Of a stretch of 40,151 bases of DNA, positions 16,945 to 22,703 are shown piece after piece. Numbering within the stretch: position 1 is the stretch's first letter; each line of letters begins with the position of its first letter. The position numbers were made by a program, and so were the translations under genes. Source of the DNA: a virus; IMG/VR virus record IMGVR_UViG_3300027821_000012, positions 1-40,151 of that record, one strand, 5' to 3'. The notes beneath the pieces are model-generated. The model was not told the DNA's origin, made no database searches, and worked only from the letters and a program-made list of their open reading frames with translations.

Positions 16945-17076
16945 TTAGCGATTCCGCATCTCGCGGATGAAGATCCAGATGAGCCACAGGCCACCGGTCA
17001 GGAGAACCAGCGTGCAGTCACACAGGAACTTGAAGAGTCCGTAGCTCTTCTTCTCTTTGATGTAGATGACGCTCAT
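16945..17076 (-). CDS. Membrane microprotein (KEKKSYGLFKF), 43 aa
   Basis: MSVIYIKEKKSYGLFKFLCD, then CTLVLLTGGLWLIWIFIREM and a basic end. GAGAGGAGG precedes the ATG at 17076. One hydrophobic helix with GGLWLIW. It is the first gene of the transcript running toward the polymerase and sits immediately after the hairpin leader at 17094-17160. Function unknown; similar proteins exist in related phages as I recall. Confidence 0.65.
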   Translation of the reverse strand: MSVIYIKEKKSYGLFKFLCDCTLVLLTGGLWLIWIFIREMRNR

Positions 17077-17093
17077 AGATATACCTCCTCTCA

Positions 17094-17160
17094 AAAAAAG
17101 AATAGGCGAGGTTAACAGCATGGATAGCTGACAGGGTTCCTCAATTGGAACCTCTCCTCA
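17094..17160 (-). ncRNA. Structured leader / attenuator before the replication-side operon
   Basis: Starts just after a TATAAT promoter. Outer stem AGGAGAGGTT (17149-17158) with AACCTCGCCT (17104-17113, one mismatch), hairpin TTCC-AATTGA-GGAA and hairpin CAGC-TATCCAT-GCTG (17117-17131), ending in ATTCTTTTTTT and then the Shine-Dalgarno of the next gene. Terminator-like structure inside a 5' leader, so expression of the genes below may depend on readthrough. Confidence 0.55.
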
Positions 17161-17190
17161 TTATAATGCATGTTTTCTCCGCGAGGTCAA
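17156..17190 (-). promoter_or_regulatory. Repeated promoter element
   Basis: -10 TATAAT (17160-17165), CGCGGAGAAAACATGC upstream, and a TTGACC at 17185-17190 as alternative -35 at 19-base spacing. Likely main promoter for the operon from 17076 downward. Confidence 0.65.
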
Positions 17191-17206
17191 TATCTGTCGA
17201 TGCGTC

Positions 17207-17449
17207 TTACTCGCCTTCGTTCGGAACGACGGTCATGTTCAACCCCAGTTCCTTTAGAGCGATCAGGTCGAACTCTTCAGGAGCAACACCTTCTCGAATC
17301 ATGACTTCGCAGAGATACGAGATGATCTTTTGAGCCTTGTCACCCTGGCGTTTGTGCGCCTTTTGGAGCTTGTGATACTTATACAGAATGAGACCCAAAT
17401 CGGCGATCAAAATAGCCGAGGCGAGCTGAAATTTCTGAAGTTCGGTCAT
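17207..17449 (-). CDS. Small membrane-anchored protein, 80 aa
   Basis: MTELQKFQLASAILIADLGL ILY forms an N-terminal hydrophobic helix, followed by basic KYHKLQKAHKRQGDKAQK and a C-terminal helical domain SYLCEVMIREGV and EFDLIALKELGLNMTVV. The C-terminal motif (EFDxIALxxLG) is shared with the 71-aa protein at 19729-19944, so they are probably paralogs. Weak Shine-Dalgarno. Function unknown. Confidence 0.6.
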   Translation of the reverse strand: MTELQKFQLASAILIADLGLILYKYHKLQKAHKRQGDKAQKIISYLCEVMIREGVAPEEFDLIALKELGLNMTVVPNEGE

Positions 17450-17453
17450 CCTG

Positions 17454-17819
17454 CTATTCACATCCTCGTCTGAACGTCTTGAGCTCGGGGTCGTATTGCC
17501 ACCAGCAGATCTTGTCATCGAAGGGCATACGCCAGAGCATGTCCGGCTCGAGGCCCATCGGCTTCTTGCAGTGAAGGCATTGACCGCCGTCGGCCAGCCT
17601 CTCACAAAGTCTGAGTGCAGCGCGGGTTGCAGAAGTCGATGCGTCAACCTCAACACCTTTGATCTTCCTGGGGTTCTTGCCGTTGTAGATCGCGACCACC
17701 ATCCAGATGATCGGATGTTCATCGTCGGAATATCGGATCTGGACTTGTGCTGCTCCAGTACGACGAATAAACTCGATCGACGCCTTGATCTTGTCTTGGT
17801 TCTCCGGTTCGCGGTCCAT
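17454..17819 (-). CDS. Putative zinc-binding protein, 121 aa
   Basis: AAGGATCCCAT precedes the ATG at 17819. Middle: STSATRAALRLCERLADGG followed by QCLHCKKPMG, then CWWQYDPELKTFRRGCE at the C-terminus. The Cys pairs CLHC and C...C near the end likely bind zinc. I associate the ending YDPELxTFRRGCE with actinophages. The gene follows the three tandem RNA units, and lies below the U-tract of RNA unit A. Confidence 0.65.
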   Translation of the reverse strand: MDREPENQDKIKASIEFIRRTGAAQVQIRYSDDEHPIIWMVVAIYNGKNPRKIKGVEVDASTSATRAALRLCERLADGGQCLHCKKPMGLEPDMLWRMPFDDKICWWQYDPELKTFRRGCE

Positions 17820-17837
17820 ATGGGATCCTTACTAGTT

Positions 17838-17929
17838 GAAAAGAGAAAAGAAAAATGGAGACTCCATGAAAGTACTGCAAAGCAGCGCGATCGAGGGGTA
17901 CTGCAAAGCAGCGCCCTATGAGTCTCCAT
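17838..17929 (-). ncRNA. Twin-hairpin small RNA, unit A
   Basis: From a TATAAT promoter the predicted RNA begins at about 17922 and is closed by a perfect 10-bp stem: ATGGAGACTC (17920-17929) with GAGTCTCCAT (17855-17864), followed by TTTTTCTTTTC. Inside are two exact 17-base copies (17872-17888 and 17898-17914), each forming the hairpin CTGC-TTT-GCAG. No reading frame. Function unknown; the terminator-like closing stem suggests a discrete RNA of about 75 nt, or an attenuator for the 121-aa gene. Confidence 0.65.
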
Positions 17930-17958
17930 TATAAGGGATGTTTTTTCTGCGAGAGAAA
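17925..17958 (-). promoter_or_regulatory. Repeated promoter element (unit A)
   Basis: -10 TATAAT (17928-17933) preceded by CGCAGAAAAAACATCCCT. The TCGCGA core is changed to TCGCAG. Confidence 0.6.
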
Positions 17959-18049
17959 AGAGTGAAAGAGAAGCCTGGTGTACTATGTGTCCGAGCAAAT
18001 TACGGTCTACCATAGAGCCCCGAGCAAATTACGAGGCGACTTCTCTTTC
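17951..18049 (-). ncRNA. Twin-hairpin small RNA, unit B
   Basis: Closed by GAAAGAGAAG (18040-18049) with CTTCTCTTTC (17964-17973). It contains two exact 14-base copies (17991-18004 and 18020-18033) that present the same loop GTAATTTGCTC on different stems; the second has a lower stem CTATG/CATAG. Ends CACCAGGCTTCTCTTTC, as unit C does. No open reading frame. The loop shares TGCTC with the loops of unit D. Confidence 0.65.
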
Positions 18050-18080
18050 ATTAGAGGGCATGTTTTCTCTGCGAGAGAAA
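18047..18080 (-). promoter_or_regulatory. Repeated promoter element (unit B)
   Basis: -10 TCTAAT (18050-18055) preceded by CGCAGAGAAAACATGCCC; -35 region weak. Confidence 0.5.
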
Positions 18081-18167
18081 ATGAAAGAGAAGCCTGGTGT
18101 AGTATGCGTCCTCGCTGGTGAGGTCTGCCATACCCGTCCTCTCTGGTGAGGTCTGACTTCTCTTTCA
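18070..18167 (-). ncRNA. Twin-hairpin small RNA, unit C
   Basis: Closed by GAAAGAGAAG (18157-18166) with CTTCTCTTTC (18083-18092). Two 21-base copies differing at one base (18107-18127 and 18135-18155) each fold as CCTC-ACCAGM-GAGG. The second hairpin has a lower stem GTATG/CATAC, parallel to unit B. U-tract is interrupted (TTTCATTTTC). Unit B and C share flanking sequence but differ in the hairpin heads. Confidence 0.65.
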
Positions 18168-18196
18168 TTAAAGGCCATGTTTCCTTCGCGAACTAA
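18164..18196 (-). promoter_or_regulatory. Repeated promoter element (unit C)
   Basis: -10 TTTAAT (18167-18172) preceded by TTCGCGAAGGAAACATGGCC. The stop codon of the 145-aa gene (18193-18195) lies in its upstream end. Confidence 0.55.
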
Positions 18197-18630
18197 CCGG
18201 CAGCCAATCCTTCGATCACGAAGTGGAGTCCCTGAACTTGTTCTTTGTGTCCGTTTAGATGTTGCGACATCATAGAAATTGGAACTCCTACTACTTCTGC
18301 CGCCTTGCTCACAGACGGCCACATCTCATCCGTCTCGACACAGCGCACGATCTTGCGCATGTAGCCACCGTTGTTCACAGTGTTCTTGATCGCATTGGTG
18401 AACACCGGAGTGTTGTTAATGCTGTTGTTGAACACCGGAGCGATCGCCTGCGGCCGGCGAAGCAAATATCCGACCACAAGACATCCACCACCGATCAAGT
18501 ACTCGCGCTGATGACTCTTCCAGTGTGCTTGAAGCTTCTGTACCTGCTGCCCCGCTGCGAATGCCTCGACCTTTTGGCGGATCGTTCGCTTCGGCTCTTT
18601 CGACTCCTTTGGCTCTTTTGGCTCAGCCAT
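18193..18630 (-). CDS. Membrane-anchored HTH protein (NUMOD1-like C-terminus), 145 aa
   Basis: ATG at 18630 follows AAAGGATTAGTC. A Lys/Glu/Pro-rich N-terminus, a basic helix, then a transmembrane helix YLIGGGCLVVGYLLRR (~49-64), an Asn-rich linker (FNNSINNTPVF), and a C-terminal domain ETDEMWPSVSKAAEVVGVPI followed by SMMSQHLNGHKEQVQGLHF. That last part has the helix-turn-helix pattern of NUMOD1 modules (SxxxAAxxxG...SxxLNG). It shares layout and motif with the gene at 20032-20409. Likely a membrane-tethered nucleic-acid-binding protein; target unknown. Confidence 0.7.
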   Translation of the reverse strand: MAEPKEPKESKEPKRTIRQKVEAFAAGQQVQKLQAHWKSHQREYLIGGGCLVVGYLLRRPQAIAPVFNNSINNTPVFTNAIKNTVNNGGYMRKIVRCVETDEMWPSVSKAAEVVGVPISMMSQHLNGHKEQVQGLHFVIEGLAAG

Positions 18631-18688
18631 GACTAATCCTTTCTATAGGTGGAAGAATATAGAGAGACTCTTGTGGTTCGGGTCTTCC

Positions 18689-19033
18689 TCACTTCAAACG
18701 AAGTATGAGGGGGGAGTTTTCATAGAAGTCGTACTTACCTGCCATTTCGCGCTGAGTCATGATTCTTGGAACCACGAGACTGTCCAAATCCGCATCGAAG
18801 ATGAAGTAGTTCTTCTGCGAATCGTTCAGACGAAGACGCTCTGCGGATGGTTCACCGCCATTCAGATGAGTAATTAGATCGAGACTGTTTTCCGTGATCT
18901 CGATAGCGTACAAATTCGGCATACCATCCTTTCGTAGAATAACGCTCAACTTCCCTTCTTTTGTAAATCCACTCGCCGACCACCCCGGTCCGACCTTGTC
19001 CCGGGCCGTGTTCTCCCGTGGACGCCGACTCAT
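18689..19033 (-). CDS. Hypothetical protein, ~114 aa
   Basis: The frame opens at an ATG at 19099 without any Shine-Dalgarno; the ATG at 19033 (MSRRPRENTARDKVGPGWSA) has AGGGGAA close upstream and is preferred. Basic N-terminus, then beta-rich KLSVILRKDGMPNLYAIEIT, a DLITHLNGGEPSAERLRL loop and YFIFDADLDSLVVPRIM. Soluble. No repeated promoter is visible upstream. Confidence 0.55.
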   Translation of the reverse strand: MSRRPRENTARDKVGPGWSASGFTKEGKLSVILRKDGMPNLYAIEITENSLDLITHLNGGEPSAERLRLNDSQKNYFIFDADLDSLVVPRIMTQREMAGKYDFYENSPLILRLK

Positions 19034-19142
19034 TTCCCCTGCGCAAGGGCGAACGATTTGTCCTTGACAAGTGCGCACCGTCAAGGTTTGTCGTTCCATA
19101 GAGTTTTTTGATCGGAGTGATCGGCGACTAGATTCACAAAAC
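19034..19142 (-). other. Region between two small genes, no repeated promoter
   Basis: Contains the possible N-terminal extension of the preceding entry (to 19099). A TTGACG lies at about 19079-19084, but I see no convincing -10 17 bases downstream. It begins with the U-tract of the terminator of the 40-aa gene. Confidence 0.3.
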
Positions 19143-19171
19143 GAAAAAAAGTTGCGGCTTGTTAGGCCACA
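19143..19171 (-). terminator. Intrinsic terminator of the 40-aa gene
   Basis: GTTGTGGC-CTAACAA-GCCGCAAC then TTTTTTT; the stop codon lies in the loop. Confidence 0.75.
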
Positions 19172-19284
19172 ACCTTTGTCGGGTTCAACAGTCCGTTGGC
19201 GGACAGGTGCTCGATCGTCTGAAGCCGGATCTTCTGGTCGTAGTTGTTCTTGACCTTCTTGATCTGCTTGATCGGGTTGAGCAT
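19162..19284 (-). CDS. Small basic protein, 40 aa
   Basis: MLNPIKQIKKVKNNYDQKIR then LQTIEHLSANGLLNPTKVVA. ATG at 19284 follows AAGGAGACAAA. Amphipathic, basic, helical. Has its own promoter (19309-19343) and terminator. Function unknown. Confidence 0.65.
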   Translation of the reverse strand: MLNPIKQIKKVKNNYDQKIRLQTIEHLSANGLLNPTKVVA

Positions 19285-19308
19285 TTTGTCTCCTTCATAA
19301 GTTGTTTA

Positions 19309-19343
19309 CCTTTCACTATATGCCCTGTTTTTTTCGCGAACAA
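19309..19343 (-). promoter_or_regulatory. Repeated promoter element
   Basis: TTGTTC (19338-19343), 17-base spacer GCGAAAAAAACAGGGCA, -10 TATAGT (19315-19320). One of the best copies. Confidence 0.7.
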
Positions 19344-19462
19344 AAAAAGATGAAGAGATCCTAGAGCCTAATATTAAGATCTCGTCTAAACGTATCGTTC
19401 ATTACTATTGTCCCATTTATTTTAATAGGTGGGAACAAGTAATATACTTGATTATTTTCTAT
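19344..19462 (-). ncRNA. AU-rich structured RNA unit G (or 13-aa leader peptide)
   Basis: Between a TATAAT promoter and the next U-tract lie about 110 bases without a normal gene. Folds: CAAGTA-TAT-TACTTG, CCCA...TGGG, and GAGATC...GATCTC before TTCATCTTTTTTT. Much richer in A and T than its surroundings. The only short frame is MNDTFRRDLNIRL with a weak GGGA 10 bases upstream. RNA is the preferred reading. Confidence 0.45.
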
Positions 19463-19489
19463 TATACTACATGTTTTACGCGCGAAAAA
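19459..19489 (-). promoter_or_regulatory. Repeated promoter element (unit G)
   Basis: TTTTTC (19484-19489), 17-base spacer, -10 TATAAT (19461-19466). Confidence 0.65.
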
Positions 19490-19517
19490 AAGAGAGTCCG
19501 TGTTTGGAATCTCTTTA
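19484..19517 (-). terminator. Intrinsic terminator of the 44-aa gene
   Basis: AAGAGATTCC-AAACA-CGGACTCTCTT with TTTTT; its U-tract forms the -35 hexamer of the unit G promoter. Confidence 0.75.
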
Positions 19518-19523
19518 AACCTG

Positions 19524-19658
19524 CTACTTGCGGTACAGCAGATAGTTGACTTCGTTGTAGGCCTCGTCGAAGCGCTCTCTGGTGAGTTCTGGATTGTGGT
19601 TCTTCAGAATATCCCAGACGCGCTCTTGACGACGGATCCTACGAATCTTCTTCAACAT
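19524..19658 (-). CDS. Small basic helical protein, 44 aa
   Basis: MLKKIRRIRRQERVWDILKN HNPELT..., ending NEVNYLLYRK. ATG at 19658 follows AAGGAGAGCAATC. Very basic N-terminus; probably nucleic-acid or membrane-surface binding. Own promoter and terminator. Function unknown. Confidence 0.65.
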   Translation of the reverse strand: MLKKIRRIRRQERVWDILKNHNPELTRERFDEAYNEVNYLLYRK

Positions 19659-19683
19659 GATTGCTCTCCTTGATAGATTTAGG

Positions 19684-19716
19684 TTTCATTATACACCCTG
19701 TTTTTCTCGCGAAAAA
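19684..19716 (-). promoter_or_regulatory. Repeated promoter element
   Basis: TTTTTC (19711-19716), 17-base spacer, -10 TATAAT (19688-19693). Confidence 0.7.
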
Positions 19717-19746
19717 GAAGAAGCCCTGTTAGGCTTCCTCTTCTGT
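19711..19746 (-). terminator. Intrinsic terminator overlapping the 71-aa gene end
   Basis: GAAGAGGAAGCC-TAACA-GGGCTTCTTC then TTTTTC; the last codons and stop of the gene form the upstream arm. Confidence 0.7.
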
Positions 19747-19944
19747 TTCTACCGTGATTCCGAGTTGCGCGAGTGCGATCTTGTCGAATTCATCGATCTC
19801 GACCTTGCCGTCGTTGATCATGCCGACCATGTACGCAGCAACCTCGTTGGTGTTGTTGACCTTACGAGACTTTCTTTGTGCATGGATCTTCATTCCAACG
19901 GTCACGGCGGTCATGACGATGAATCGAACCATAGCGGGGTTCAT
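19729..19944 (-). CDS. Small membrane-anchored protein, 71 aa
   Basis: MNPAMVRFIVMTAVTVGMKI as one N-terminal transmembrane helix, basic HAQRKSRKVN, then helical AAYMVGMINDGKVEIDEFDK and IALAQLGITV with an acidic end. AAGGAGTTTGC precedes the ATG at 19944. Same plan and C-terminal EFDxIALxxLG motif as the gene at 17207-17449. Function unknown. Confidence 0.65.
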   Translation of the reverse strand: MNPAMVRFIVMTAVTVGMKIHAQRKSRKVNNTNEVAAYMVGMINDGKVEIDEFDKIALAQLGITVETEEEA

Positions 19945-19963
19945 GCAAACTCCTTCTTAGTAG

Positions 19964-19996
19964 TTTCACTATACCCCCTGTTTTCCACGCGAAAAA
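19964..19996 (-). promoter_or_regulatory. Repeated promoter element
   Basis: TTTTTC (19991-19996), spacer 17, -10 TATAGT (19968-19973). Confidence 0.7.
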
Positions 19997-20023
19997 AAGA
20001 GAATCCGTGTTGGACCCTCTTTC
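19991..20023 (-). terminator. Intrinsic terminator of the 125-aa gene
   Basis: AAGAGGGTCC-AACA-CGGATTCTCTT then TTTTTC, 10 paired positions including G-U. Confidence 0.75.
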
Positions 20024-20031
20024 TTCGTGAA

Positions 20032-20409
20032 CTATGCAGCGGCCAGCGCCACGCGCTCGTACACTTCACCGCCAGCGTTGGGAAGCATTCCGTTCAAATG
20101 CTTGGACATGTGAACTGGATCGATGCCATTAGCTGCAGCTGCTTGCGCTTGTGACAAGAAAAGCTCACCCGTTGTCTTGTTACGAACAACCCAACTCGGC
20201 GGACCCTTACGAAACACTTCGATGACTTGCCAGACGTTGTTGGTAGTCGGAGAGTTGATCTGAAGCTTGTATGCGTCCACGATCTGGATGCTTCCACCCA
20301 TACCATAGAATGTCCCGACAACCGTGATCGCGCCGAGAATAACGCCGCCCGTACCCACGAGATAATACTTCTTGTTCTCGCGGAAATGACCTTTGATACG
20401 ATCGAACAT
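20032..20409 (-). CDS. Membrane-anchored HTH protein, paralog, 125 aa
   Basis: AAAGGAGCTCTT before the ATG at 20409. Basic N-terminus MFDRIKGHFRENKKYYL, transmembrane helix VGTGGVILGAITVVGTFYG (~18-36), linker with SPTTNN, then VVRNKTTGELFLSQAQAAAA and NGIDPVHMSKHLNG. The final motif is the same NUMOD1-like helix-turn-helix as in the gene at 18193-18630. It follows the twin-hairpin RNA unit D, as the other copy precedes units A-C, so these proteins and the RNAs may be connected (inference). Confidence 0.7.
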   Translation of the reverse strand: MFDRIKGHFRENKKYYLVGTGGVILGAITVVGTFYGMGGSIQIVDAYKLQINSPTTNNVWQVIEVFRKGPPSWVVRNKTTGELFLSQAQAAAANGIDPVHMSKHLNGMLPNAGGEVYERVALAAA

Positions 20410-20424
20410 AAGAGCTCCTTTCAG

Positions 20425-20515
20425 AGCATAGAAAACAAAAAGAGAGTGACTCGATCGAGCATAACAAGATCGATTCAACGATGTAGTCGAGCATGACAAG
20501 ACTACATCTCTCTCA
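20425..20515 (-). ncRNA. Twin-hairpin small RNA, unit D
   Basis: Between promoter and the 125-aa gene. Outer stem GAGAGA with TCTCTT near 20441-20447, then TTTTTGTTTTC. Hairpin 1: GATGTAGTC (20500-20508) with GACTACATC (20480-20488), 9 perfect pairs, loop TTGTCATGCTC. Hairpin 2: TCGATC/GATCGA (20451-20473), loop TTGTTATGCTC. Stems differ completely while the 11-base loops differ at one position, so the loop is what is conserved. Confidence 0.7.
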
Positions 20516-20543
20516 TAATGCCCTATGTTTTTTTCGCGAACAA
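20513..20543 (-). promoter_or_regulatory. Repeated promoter element (unit D)
   Basis: TTGTTC (20538-20543), 17-base spacer, -10 CATTAT (20515-20520), a weaker -10 than in other copies. Confidence 0.55.
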
Positions 20544-20577
20544 AAAAAGAGAGTCAGTATTTCGACTCCCTTTTCGA
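20541..20577 (-). terminator. Intrinsic terminator of the 53-aa gene
   Basis: AAAGGGAGTCGAAATACTGACTCTCTTT followed by TTTG; strong stem and U-tract. Confidence 0.75.
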
Positions 20578-20583
20578 AGGGTA

Positions 20584-20745
20584 TTACCGACGAGCATCCT
20601 TCATGGAACGGCGTGAGACCTCGCGCGACCAGGCCATCGAGTTCATGATCTTCGCGGCGCCGGTGAGCACTGCTGCTGCGACACCGAGAGCGATGATGGG
20701 GTTCTCTTCTGCTTGGCGCTTGAGATTCTCCAGAAACTTTTCCAT
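20584..20745 (-). CDS. Small membrane protein, 53 aa
   Basis: MEKFLENLKRQAEENPIIAL, then GVAAAVLTGAAKIMNSMAWS and a basic C-terminus REVSRRSMKDARR. AAGGATTACTCC precedes the ATG at 20745. One Ala/Gly-rich transmembrane helix. Resembles short membrane proteins of other actinophages (recollection). Function unknown. Confidence 0.65.
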   Translation of the reverse strand: MEKFLENLKRQAEENPIIALGVAAAVLTGAAKIMNSMAWSREVSRRSMKDARR

Positions 20746-20773
20746 GGAGTAATCCTTTCTTGGTAGGGTTACC

Positions 20774-20806
20774 TTTCACTATAGGGAGTGAAAATATCGC
20801 GAAAAA
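20774..20806 (-). promoter_or_regulatory. Repeated promoter element
   Basis: TTTTTC (20801-20806), spacer 17 containing GCGATATTTTCACTCCC, -10 TATAGT (20778-20783). Confidence 0.65.
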
Positions 20807-20837
20807 AGAAAGCCGATGTTTAGGCTTCCCTTTTTGA
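20801..20837 (-). terminator. Intrinsic terminator of the 59-aa gene
   Basis: GGGAAGCC-TAAACAT-CGGCTTTC then TTTTTTC. Confidence 0.65.
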
Positions 20838-20840
20838 AAT

Positions 20841-21020
20841 CTACTTTCCGTACTTCTGCTTTTTCGCTTCTTTGGCGGCGTTCTTGATCTGTTCGGCTTT
20901 CTCGATGATCATGTCGAAGTCTTCTTCCGTAAGCTCTTGCTTAGCGTTGAAGTTTCTCAATTCACTATCGAATGACAGTCCAGGGCGAAGAAGGTCTACC
21001 ATATGCGCGTGTCTTTGCAT
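20841..21020 (-). CDS. Small charged helical protein, 59 aa
   Basis: MQRHAHMVDLLRPGLSFDSE, then LRNFNAKQELTEEDFDMIIE and a Lys/Ala-rich helix KAEQIKNAAKEAKKQKYGK. AAGGAGATCGCT precedes the ATG at 21020, so this start is chosen over the ATG at 21044. Soluble, helical. Own promoter and terminator. Function unknown. Confidence 0.65.
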   Translation of the reverse strand: MQRHAHMVDLLRPGLSFDSELRNFNAKQELTEEDFDMIIEKAEQIKNAAKEAKKQKYGK

Positions 21021-21039
21021 AGCGATCTCCTTAAGTAGT

Positions 21040-21071
21040 TTCACTATAGGGAGTGAAAATATCGCGACTAG
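21040..21071 (-). promoter_or_regulatory. Repeated promoter element
   Basis: -10 TATAGT (21043-21048) preceded by TCGCGATATTTTCACTCCC; overlaps the 3' end of the 69-aa gene. -35 region CTAGTC is weak. Confidence 0.6.
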
Positions 21072-21277
21072 AGGATGGTTACTGGGGCGAAGATCGTGAT
21101 CGGCGGATGACTGACAACGTTCTCCTCAGGAAGGCTCCCCATGTTGTACTGCCCTGGCTCCATATCCGTGTTCACGAAGAAATAGAACTCGCCGTGAATA
21201 TATGGGAGAGAACGGCCGTGAATGAACTCACAGAACGGAAGCGTTTCAGGAGTGACCTTGATGGCGTATTTAGGCAC
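21068..21277 (-). CDS. Hypothetical soluble protein, 69 aa
   Basis: GTG start at 21277 with AAAGGAG 9 bases upstream. MPKYAIKVTPETLPFCEFIH, then GEFYFFVNTDMEPGQYNMG and a hydrophobic C-terminus TIFAPVTIL. Beta-rich. Has a similar look to the 71-aa protein at 22439-22654 (MIRKYAIALEEKNLELIQ..., YFVFYAGPMM), so the two may be related. Function unknown. Confidence 0.6.
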   Translation of the reverse strand: MPKYAIKVTPETLPFCEFIHGRSLPYIHGEFYFFVNTDMEPGQYNMGSLPEENVVSHPPITIFAPVTIL

Positions 21278-21319
21278 GAGTACTTCTCCTTTACGAAGTA
21301 ATATCTGCGACTTGGGAGG

Positions 21320-21355
21320 AAATTACCCCCCGGGGTTTTTTCGGTCGCGAAAAAA
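21320..21355 (-). promoter_or_regulatory. Degenerate promoter element
   Basis: Minus strand TTTTTCGCGACCGAAAAAACCCCGG region then TAATTT (21320-21325). Keeps the U-tract and TCGCGA but has an altered, GC-rich spacer. Possible weaker promoter for the 69-aa gene. Confidence 0.35.
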
Positions 21356-21447
21356 AAGAGAATGTCTGCTGGTATGGTTTTCTGTCCCAGGTCAACTAGC
21401 CACACTACATCCCGGACTCGCAAGTACGGGAGCATGGCTCCATTCTC
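21349..21447 (-). ncRNA. Structured small RNA, unit F
   Basis: Closed by GAGAATG (21441-21447) with CATTCTC (21358-21364), then TTTTTTTT. Inside: GGAGC-CAT-GCTCC and CCCG...CGGG hairpins, and a stretch (GGGATGTAGTGTGGCTAGTTG) that superficially resembles a tRNA D-arm. No twin repeats and no reading frame of note. Lies between two promoters. Confidence 0.55.
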
Positions 21448-21476
21448 ACTATATACCCTGTTTTTTTCGCGAACAA
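21445..21476 (-). promoter_or_regulatory. Repeated promoter element (unit F)
   Basis: TTGTTC (21471-21476), spacer 17, -10 TATAGT (21448-21453). Confidence 0.7.
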
Positions 21477-21572
21477 AAAAGAGAAGGAGGACACTGGTGT
21501 AGCTCGATCCTTATAGCCGTGACGCGATTAGCCTTTGACATTACTGTCTCCGGTACCACGGCTTCCTTCTCC
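21474..21572 (-). ncRNA. Structured small RNA, unit E
   Basis: Outer stem GAGAAGGA (21564-21571) with TCCTTCTC (21481-21488), then TTTTTTG. Second stem AGCCGTG (21557-21563) with CACGGCT (21515-21521), enclosing GACA-GTAA-TGTC (21537-21548), a GNRA-type tetraloop. The 3' part holds CTACACCAGTG, similar to TACACCAGG at the 3' side of units B and C. Looks like a stable nested RNA of about 95 nt with its own promoter and terminator. Confidence 0.6.
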
Positions 21573-21601
21573 ATTATACACCTTGTTTTTTTCGCGAACA
21601 A
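21571..21601 (-). promoter_or_regulatory. Repeated promoter element (unit E)
   Basis: TTGTTC (21596-21601), spacer 17, -10 TATAAT (21573-21578). Confidence 0.7.
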
Positions 21602-21632
21602 AAAAGAGAAGCCGGGTTTCGACTCCTCTTTC
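21599..21632 (-). terminator. Intrinsic terminator of the 61-aa gene
   Basis: AAAGAGGAGTCG-AAAC-CCGGCTTCTCTTT then TTG; some mismatches but a clear U-tract. Confidence 0.65.
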
Positions 21633-21637
21633 GGGAA

Positions 21638-21823
21638 CTACGCGACGGGCTGGTTCTGCCACTCCTCGAACAGTCCCTTCTCCTGAAGGAAGGTCTCCAT
21701 GTCGTTGACGGTCAGAAGCGCGCCGTACGCGACGACGACCAGTGTGGTCGTGCCGGCGATGACGATGTACTTCTTGGCGTTCCGACGGAGATGCCTTCCA
21801 ACCTTGTTGGGGAAGTCCTTCAT
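21638..21823 (-). CDS. Small membrane protein, 61 aa
   Basis: MKDFPNKVGRHLRRNAKKYI, then VIAGTTTLVVVAYGALLTV as one transmembrane helix, and an acidic C-terminus NDMETFLQEKGLFEEWQNQ. AAAGGATTTCCC precedes the ATG at 21823. The basic-helix then TM opening resembles the HTH proteins at 18193 and 20032 but without the HTH domain. Confidence 0.65.
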   Translation of the reverse strand: MKDFPNKVGRHLRRNAKKYIVIAGTTTLVVVAYGALLTVNDMETFLQEKGLFEEWQNQPVA

Positions 21824-21844
21824 GGGAAATCCTTTCGTTAGTAG

Positions 21845-21877
21845 TTTCACTATACACCTTGTTTTTCTCGCGAAAAA
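21845..21877 (-). promoter_or_regulatory. Repeated promoter element
   Basis: TTTTTC (21872-21877), spacer 17, -10 TATAGT (21849-21854). Confidence 0.7.
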
Positions 21878-21926
21878 AAATGGGAAAGGTTTAGAAAAAG
21901 GAAATCCCCTTATGGGGTTCCTTTTC
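21873..21926 (-). terminator. Intrinsic terminator of the 29-aa gene
   Basis: AAAAGGAA-CCCC-ATAA-GGGG-A-TTTCCTTTT, a long near-perfect stem, with TTTTTTTT further down. Confidence 0.75.
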
Positions 21927-22015
21927 TAGATCAGGCCAGGTAGGGCGTCTGAAAGTCCAACATACACTGACGTTTGCTGGACGCGAATCCAGACGGTAAG
22001 CATAGTTACGAACAT
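21926..22015 (-). CDS. Microprotein, 29 aa
   Basis: MFVTMLTVWIRVQQTSVYVG LSDALPGLI. The ATG at 22015 follows AAGGAGACATCAAA, and the frame has its own promoter and terminator, which argues it is real. Amphipathic, possibly membrane-associated. Confidence 0.6.
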   Translation of the reverse strand: MFVTMLTVWIRVQQTSVYVGLSDALPGLI

Positions 22016-22042
22016 TTTGATGTCTCCTTAAATTGGTTTGAT

Positions 22043-22075
22043 CTTCACTATACTCCCTGTTTTTTTCGCGAAAAA
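22043..22075 (-). promoter_or_regulatory. Repeated promoter element
   Basis: TTTTTC (22070-22075), spacer 17, -10 TATAGT (22047-22052). Confidence 0.7.
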
Positions 22076-22101
22076 AAGAGAATCCGTGTTGGATCCTCTT
22101 C
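22070..22101 (-). terminator. Intrinsic terminator of the 77-aa gene
   Basis: AAGAGGATCC-AACA-CGGATTCTCTT then TTTTT; nearly the same sequence as the terminator at 19991-20023. Confidence 0.75.
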
Positions 22102-22112
22102 TTGAAGCTGAA

Positions 22113-22346
22113 CTACTTCGAGCGTGGAGTGCTGATGGCAATCACAGGCTCAAATTCTTCACGGGGAACGTTATGTCTCTCGAGTACACGGACCAGTTCA
22201 TCAATCTGGATTTCCTTGACTTTCATCTGAATCTCGTGACTGTCACACAGTCTACGAAATCCTTTCTTCAAGTTCCAGGTCAGATGAAGACCGTATAGCT
22301 CGCGAATAATCACGATTCCCGCAAGAGCTTGAGTTCGATTGAACAT
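22113..22346 (-). CDS. Hypothetical protein, 77 aa
   Basis: MFNRTQALAGIVIIRELYGL has a modest hydrophobic N-terminus; then basic LTWNLKKGFRRLCDSHE and a C-terminal VKEIQIDELVRVLERHNV, EEFEPVIAI. The end loosely matches the EFDxIAL motif of the two small anchored proteins. AAAGGAGG precedes the ATG at 22346. Function unknown. Confidence 0.6.
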   Translation of the reverse strand: MFNRTQALAGIVIIRELYGLHLTWNLKKGFRRLCDSHEIQMKVKEIQIDELVRVLERHNVPREEFEPVIAISTPRSK

Positions 22347-22372
22347 TACACCTCCTTTCGAGATAGTTTACC

Positions 22373-22405
22373 TTTCATTATACGCCCTGTTTTATGTGCG
22401 AAAAA
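22373..22405 (-). promoter_or_regulatory. Repeated promoter element
   Basis: TTTTTC (22400-22405), spacer 17 (GCACATAAAACAGGGCG), -10 TATAAT (22377-22382). TCGCGA is TCGCAC here. Confidence 0.65.
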
Positions 22406-22432
22406 AGAGAATCCGTATTAGGGACTCTCTTT
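22400..22432 (-). terminator. Intrinsic terminator of the 71-aa gene
   Basis: AAAGAGAGTCCC-TAATA-CGGATTCTCTTT with following TTTC. Confidence 0.7.
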
Positions 22433-22438
22433 ACGTTA

Positions 22439-22654
22439 TTACAATAGGAAGGTGATGTTTTCCCTAGCATAACCGTACTCATCGTAGAGATCGTTTTCGG
22501 TGATGATCATAGGACTTTGAACTTCGGTCATCATCGGTCCAGCGTAGAAGACGAAATACATTCCATCTTTTGGCTCGACCGGGACGGCCTTGTTCAAGAC
22601 TTGGATCAACTCCAAATTTTTCTCTTCGAGAGCAATGGCATATTTGCGAATCAT
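22439..22654 (-). CDS. Hypothetical soluble protein, 71 aa
   Basis: MIRKYAIALEEKNLELIQVL, then DGMYFVFYAGPMMTEVQSPM and a Tyr-rich C-terminus NDLYDEYGYARENITFLL. AAAGGAATGC precedes the ATG at 22654. Small alpha/beta protein with own promoter and terminator. Function unknown. Confidence 0.65.
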   Translation of the reverse strand: MIRKYAIALEEKNLELIQVLNKAVPVEPKDGMYFVFYAGPMMTEVQSPMIITENDLYDEYGYARENITFLL

Positions 22655-22670
22655 GCATTCCTTTCGTAGT

Positions 22671-22703
22671 TTTCACTATAAGCCCTGTTTTACGTGCGAA
22701 AAA
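22671..22703 (-). promoter_or_regulatory. Repeated promoter element
   Basis: TTTTTC (22698-22703), spacer 17, -10 TATAGT (22675-22680). TCGCAC variant. Confidence 0.65.

Follow-up and report, generated by a model that had tools for sequence, protein, structure and literature searches.

The stretch analysed here, which we call the window, is the virus record IMGVR_UViG_3300027821_000012 over its whole length (40,151 bases), with siphophage genes on the minus strand. It contains four predicted small RNA genes, units A to D, each bearing two near-identical hairpin heads, and two genes, P1 and P2, encoding related membrane-anchored proteins with a helix-turn-helix (HTH) domain. The nearest annotated relatives of the window's DNA polymerase are in Gordonia and Rhodococcus phages (58–62%), with more remote relatives in Arthrobacter, Streptomyces, and Curtobacterium phages; the host is therefore probably an actinobacterium. 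No tRNA was found in the window.

All four units read 5′ to 3′ on the minus strand. Unit A (17854..17930) is closed by an 11 bp stem and holds two heads with the core C-GCUGC-UUU-GCAGU-A (copy 1, GCGCTGCTTTGCAGTAC, 17898..17914; copy 2, the same sequence, 17872..17888); its −10 hexamer, TATAAT, is at 17928..17933. Unit B (17963..18050) has a 12 bp closing stem and two heads with the loop UAAUUUGCU (copy 1, TCGTAATTTGCTCGG, 18020..18034, with the end coordinate obtained by count; copy 2, CCGTAATTTGCTCGG, 17991..18005). Unit C (18080..18169), with a 14 bp closing stem and the heads A-CCUC-ACCAG(A/C)-GAGG-A (copy 1, CCTCACCAGAGAGG, 18138..18151; copy 2, CCTCACCAGCGAGG, 18110..18123), is built on the same scaffold as unit B. 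Unit D, at about 20438..20515, lies directly upstream of P2 and has a closing stem of about 6–8 bp. Its two heads, UUGU(C/U)AUGCUC, sit on outer stems that are unrelated in sequence (loop copy 1, TTGTCATGCTC, 20489..20499; loop copy 2, TTGTTATGCTC, 20457..20467).

Each unit starts at a −10-like hexamer (TATAAT in A, TCTAAT in B, TTTAAT in C, CATTAT in D) and ends in a T-run, and folding prediction encloses the twin hairpins within the closing stem. Units made up of a promoter, a closing stem, and a T-run number five to six in the window vs. none or one in Markov-shuffled windows. The initial annotation of this DNA had described four non-coding units of this kind at essentially these positions, with B and C on one scaffold, and had matched them to no known RNA family; all of this holds. 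A search of the whole window with the Rfam covariance models gave no match at the curated threshold, only sub-threshold chance matches with E up to 5. The strand of the units, the tight linkage to the P1/P2 gene family, and two companion units, E and F, were absent from that annotation.

The near identity of the two heads in each unit, also claimed there, is exact or nearly so: the copies have 18 nt in common in unit A, 15 in B, 20 in C, and 15 in D, with at most one mismatch. A twin repeat of this length never appeared in 3,000 shuffles of each unit's interior, the kind of control by which the annotation had proposed that its claim be checked. The heads are mostly short loops (3–9 nt) on stems of 2–5 bp, shorter than ordinary antisense seeding would require. 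A conventional antisense role and anticodon mimicry were both dropped as candidates, since most loops are only 3–9 nt long and vary freely. A 12-mer of the unit C head, CTCACCAGAGAG, is found once more in the window, at 19575–19586 on the minus strand, within a small coding sequence; this may be chance.

The two membrane-anchored HTH proteins noticed beside the units are real and mutually homologous. P1, of 145 amino acids, is encoded at 18193..18630 (minus strand), the gene ending some 24 nt upstream of unit C; P2, of 125 amino acids, is encoded at 20032..20409 on the same strand. Both match the profile of PHROG 27818, a family of unknown function, over most of its length (E = 8.6e-6 for P1 and 8.1e-17 for P2). 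Unit-adjacent genes in general encode proteins of about 120–160 amino acids in which a hydrophobic helix at the N-terminus is combined with a NUMOD-like HTH at the C-terminus. The AlphaFold model of P2 has a helix at residues 13–34, a low-confidence linker, and an HTH domain at 72–123 (predicted local distance difference test, pLDDT, about 94–98). In Pfam, P1 gives only weak, sub-threshold matches to the NUMOD-like domain of I-HmuI, and no nuclease domain is found in either protein. The solved folds closest to the HTH, all with weak E-values, are a Paulinella DNA-binding protein, I-HmuI, and the DNA-binding domain of I-TevI. In Gordonia, Rhodococcus, and Arthrobacter phages, such genes are currently annotated as "HNH endonuclease", "membrane protein", or "hypothetical". 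The N-terminal module of P2, basic and then hydrophobic (K-x-x-x-H-x-x-x-N-K-K-Y), recurs at window 21638–21820 and in similar small open reading frames. The C-termini of these small proteins differ, as if one membrane-targeting module carried varied cargo domains.

A direct DNA search with the window region and the units across a phage collection found nothing. Homologs of the units nonetheless exist in metagenomic loci (L numbers). Unit A has homologs in L010, with heads GCGCTGC-ATTA-GCAGTAC, and in L096. The latter was the one true new homolog from an IMG/VR search with broad patterns for the A and B heads, which otherwise returned mostly chance matches; for two alignments, A1 and A3, sequence diversity was too high to allow scans of the collection. 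In L298 the scaffold of unit A is kept while GCUUC-UAU-GAAGU replaces GCUGC-UUU-GCAGU in both head copies, the same compensatory change, G-C to U-A, having occurred in each. For unit B, homologs are found in L070 and L064 and, for one head only, in L296, and the scaffold common to B and C is found again in L064, L067, and L296. Since L067 and L296 each have two differing heads, head identity is a rule and not an absolute. A syntenic homolog of unit D in L049/L318, again directly upstream of a P2-like gene, has a changed outer stem and the loop UUGUAAUGCUC in both copies. Three units of the twin-head class are found in L231, one of them with three copies. The only match to a genome contig, L306, covers just the N-terminal part and was not used; the contig is probably of phage origin and placed in a metagenome bin.

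The class is also present in isolated Gordonia, Rhodococcus, and Arthrobacter phages, often with three identical heads; in the Gordonia Deejayvirinae phages these RNAs lie in unannotated gaps. In each of the phages Avazak, Artorias, Perkunas, and Rickmore, a common scaffold bears three head cores of 13 nt that are identical to one another, and related units occur in Pherobrine, Odesza, Petito, and Rhodococcus phage ReqiPepy6. In Avazak and Artorias, where the HTH proteins are gp56 and gp55, the RNAs, with the predicted start TATAATGAGA, carry the heads CCCGUUAUACGGA and ACCUUUAUGAGGA. When the RNAs of these eight phages are aligned, 95% of cells pair, a figure that is favoured by the derivation of the structure from the same alignment. 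The covariation score of 0.515 was reached by none of 500 shuffles, and slid partners, a control that comes out far lower, gave at most 0.156. Compensatory changes are found in 15 of the 31 pairs, so that the homologs and covariation to which the initial annotation had looked as a further check are both present. The outer stems differ in sequence and keep their complementarity, with 165 pairs vs. 119 ± 9 by a stricter flank-complementarity statistic. That statistic was used in place of a first one, which was too permissive and gave no clear signal (329 vs. 302 ± 18).

The position of the units relative to the protein gene varies. They lie downstream of it in the window (P1), in L070 and L096, and in the Gordonia phages; upstream in the window (D and P2), L010, L231, and L303; and nested within it, in the linker between helix and HTH, in L313, L314, L316, L318, and L319. 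Over all loci collected, some of which were fetched by unit patterns, 24 of the 45 units whose twin repeat is at least 12 nt long are within 250 nt of a PHROG 27818-like gene, vs. 19 of the 458 units lacking such a repeat (Fisher p = 2e-17). Shuffled interiors yield 12–22 twin repeats of at least 12 nt, so most unlinked twin repeats are background. Because of the loci fetched by unit patterns, those found by protein alone offer a cleaner test of linkage. There, twin copies of at least 13 nt are near the gene in 14 of 18 cases, as against 8 of 135 control windows (p = 3e-11). In a forward test, the 114 kb genome of Arthrobacter phage Qui, a phage of a different genus, was entered through gp75, a protein found by its similarity to P2; right behind the gp75 gene lies a unit with three copies, closed by a stem of 16 bp. 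At the level of sequence, we regard the twin-head RNA class and its linkage to PHROG 27818 as well established.

Heads and recognition helix appear to change together. When Avazak is compared with Artorias, divergence is low in the 5′ part of the protein gene (3.7%) and in the RNA scaffold (2%) and high in the HTH part of the gene (34%) and in the heads (31%). All three heads are altered alike, including a compensatory G-C to U-A change, and the Perkunas head is an intermediate, having the mismatch base of Avazak and the stem of Artorias. Heads had been described in the initial annotation as interchangeable paired elements on a shared scaffold, and this is what is seen in these three phages and between unit A and L298, where heads are swapped and the scaffold is kept. 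Among eight loci with nested heads, recognition-helix distance, taken over a 10-residue window picked after the data had been seen, follows head distance (rank r = 0.70, exact Mantel p = 0.0003; partial p = 0.0004), whereas a control protein segment does not (r = −0.03, p = 0.55). L317 and L319, which have the head GAUGUUAUC in common, have nearly the same helix (SNLSRHLNGLQENA and SNISRQLNGLQENA).

The heads have a further common feature at the neck. Beneath nearly every head of the main group there is a 1 × 1 mismatch with A as its 3′ base (C·A or A·A), often doubled around one G-C pair (AGA-head-ACA), and the nested heads have tandem G·U pairs in place of the mismatch. The neck sequences were checked, and the pairs were assigned by hand on predicted folds. 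In Rev bound to the Rev response element (RRE) and in similar complexes, non-canonical pairs widen the deep groove and an α-helix reads the adjacent base pairs. From this type of groove widening, we propose that the HTH recognition helix would read the inner stem.

Our interpretation, to which we assign a probability of roughly 60%, is that units A to D are small phage RNAs that serve as multivalent ligands of the co-encoded membrane-anchored HTH protein, P1 or P2. It is based on the anatomy of the RNA genes, their homologs, covariation, concerted head replacement, linkage, and the correlation of head with recognition helix. We further infer that the units would be transcribed and bound directly, that the protein would be seated in the membrane, and that the RNA may activate, scaffold, or restrain it. 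Direct recognition of the RNA by the HTH protein is held at somewhat better than even odds. The initial annotation had named an RNA and a host regulator among the possible targets of the heads; linkage and sequence tracking point instead to the membrane HTH protein encoded beside them. The RNA may act on its partner as a sponge, a decoy, or a scaffold.

The proposed mechanism is as follows. The RNA would fold into a closing stem on which a short hairpin head is present twice or, elsewhere, three times. The neck of non-canonical pairs, either an A·A or C·A mismatch or tandem G·U, would widen the deep groove below the head, where the recognition helix of the NUMOD-like HTH could read the inner stem of 2–5 bp together with the loop. 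The two or three heads of one RNA would bind, and then cluster or sequester, two or three copies of the protein at the membrane. Changes in the head would go with changes in the recognition helix, giving a matched pair specific to each phage. We lean toward a role in which the RNA controls the activity of a membrane effector; counter-defence and the exclusion of other phages are other candidate roles. The chances seem to us evenly divided on the fuller proposal, namely, that this is an undescribed two-component phage system in which the inner stems of hairpins, present in two or three identical copies on the RNA, hold a sequence code that a membrane HTH protein reads. Matched pairs would co-evolve, with heads replaced in concert, making a re-codable module that clusters proteins at the membrane.

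Several observations weigh against this interpretation. Among proteins of solved structure, those closest to the HTH bind DNA and not RNA. In P2-type proteins, basic residues precede the hydrophobic helix, which suggests an N-in/C-out orientation; if the helix spans the membrane, the HTH would then be outside the cell, although the side is uncertain. When 30 residues are taken in place of 10, the Mantel p becomes 0.013. In six Gordonia phages, head distance follows the HTH-flanking segment (r = 0.87) better than the HTH itself (r = 0.66), so phylogeny could explain that subset. Finally, three head types (A, B, and C) stand beside the single protein P1 in the window, and in both L316 and L319 a single gene has two head types next to it; the pairing is therefore not one-to-one.

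The alternative that fares best, though we consider it unlikely, is that the heads are DNA operators. The HTH protein would bind the inverted repeats as DNA at its own locus, regulating the unit or anchoring phage DNA to the membrane, and the RNA would be a by-product. The HTH does resemble DNA-binding domains, and the inverted repeats that make up the heads occur two or three times, tracked by the recognition helix as operators are by a repressor. However, operators do not account well for outer stems that vary in sequence yet remain complementary and covary, for unit A homologs in which the loop is 3 or 4 nt long with the half-sites unchanged, or for necks whose C·A, A·A, or G·U pairs form no DNA palindrome. 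Moreover, every unit has its own promoter and terminator-like end.

Ranked after it, and likewise improbable, is the idea that the units are decoys sequestering a factor of the host or of a competitor, such as a defence protein, a toxin nuclease, or a CRISPR component, with the membrane HTH protein a mere mobile neighbour. The presence of multiple head types per genome and the fast turnover of heads do resemble an arms race. There is also a precedent in the RNA anti-CRISPRs (Racrs), short phage RNAs with one or few repeats that are found in accessory regions (PMC10651486). A mere neighbour would not be expected to show such tight linkage, including units nested within its gene, or to have a recognition helix that head changes follow, and the heads of Avazak and Artorias differ although both phages were isolated on the same host strain. 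Head length, too, is not that of a CRISPR repeat. Like the Racrs, the units are short phage RNAs with repeats; unlike them, they have hairpin heads of 10–20 nt, a closed scaffold, and linkage to a protein gene, the distinction from CRISPR repeats being by length and shape only.

Lowest we place a type III toxin-antitoxin-like arrangement, in which a toxic small membrane protein is neutralised by the repeat RNA, a special case of the multivalent-ligand proposal that predicts toxicity. In its favour, the protein is small and has a hydrophobic helix, the RNA next to it carries repeats and has a promoter of its own, and two or three repeats would suit stoichiometric binding. Against it, no ribonuclease fold is seen in the protein, the repeats form hairpins within a closed, multi-branched fold and not tandem pseudoknots, and one protein can be shared by several unit types.

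Among known systems, the pair would come closest in its working to multi-hairpin RNAs of the CsrB type or to type III antitoxins, but it lacks those of their defining features that could be checked. As in CsrB and RsmZ, which sequester CsrA and RsmA, one small RNA displays several copies of a short hairpin, here of predicted protein-binding function. The heads that bind CsrA all carry GGA, whereas here head sequence varies between RNAs and is replaced in concert, and the linked gene beside the RNA encodes a membrane HTH protein. No GGA loop motif is seen in the loops of the units, which are UUU, UAAUUUGCU, ACCAG(A/C), UUGU(C/U)AUGCUC, and others. With ToxI/ToxN the system has in common a repeat-bearing RNA beside a small protein gene; it differs in its closed, branched RNA with its own promoter and in its membrane-anchored HTH partner. 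The linked gene encodes no ToxN-like endoribonuclease, P1 and P2 consisting of a hydrophobic helix and a NUMOD-like HTH. Nor did folding prediction, in which pseudoknots were not specifically modelled, give tandem pseudoknot repeats upstream of a toxin gene, the units being upstream, downstream, or nested. The C-terminal domain of P1 and P2 has the HTH fold of the NUMOD homing endonucleases (I-HmuI and the DNA-binding domain of I-TevI), but these proteins have no nuclease domain, carry an N-terminal hydrophobic helix, and are linked to genes for multivalent RNAs.

Two companion structured RNAs without twin heads are found on the minus strand of the window: unit F (21358..21447), with a homolog in L008, and unit E (21481..21571), with homologs in L007, L273, and L319. 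Between unit E and its homologs, compensatory changes occur in 9 of 27 pairs. Both units have their own promoters and strongly conserved unpaired bases (in E, the AGUAAU loop, CUAAUCGCGUC, and GAGCUACACCAGUG). The minus strand from 17000 to 22700 holds many monocistronic small genes, each with an identical promoter, TTCGCG-AAAAAAACA-N-TATAAT, and a terminator, the next promoter abutting the T-run of the terminator before it. At 19343–19466, on the same strand, a promoter precedes a stretch that looks structured and holds no obvious gene; it is possibly a further RNA gene. In Arthrobacter phage Mudcat, gp94 (L280, 34403 onward) is annotated as an "RNA-dependent RNA polymerase", and long genes at this position in relatives are called HTH DNA-binding proteins; gp94 is possibly an RNA polymerase of the phage, one that could bear on the unusual promoters. 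Another recurrent, unannotated phage RNA family has the elements GAAUGCGUAGGU...CUACC, CUGGUG, and a UGGGCUGUGAACCC-like element, and is possibly tRNA- or tmRNA-like (L027 402–510; L028 1535–1655; L011 4147–4270; L037 15101–15212; L295 2817–2929; L277 9249).

No Rfam family, no annotation in the records examined, and no paper in the literature searched describes the RNA–protein pair. That search, which lay outside subscription papers and preprints, found no paper naming NUMOD proteins together with phage small RNAs, and two surveys of actinophage genomes do not mention such RNAs. The evidence points to an undescribed RNA–protein pair in soil viruses of actinobacteria, one able to change its recognition code. 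It also raises a question of concerted evolution, namely, how two or three head copies stay identical while the stems carrying them differ. If our interpretation is true, the HTH fold would join the means by which RNA hairpins are recognised sequence-specifically, with natural matched pairs at hand for testing the code, and a whole class of unannotated RNA genes would be sitting in the well-studied teaching-collection phages of Gordonia, Rhodococcus, and Arthrobacter.

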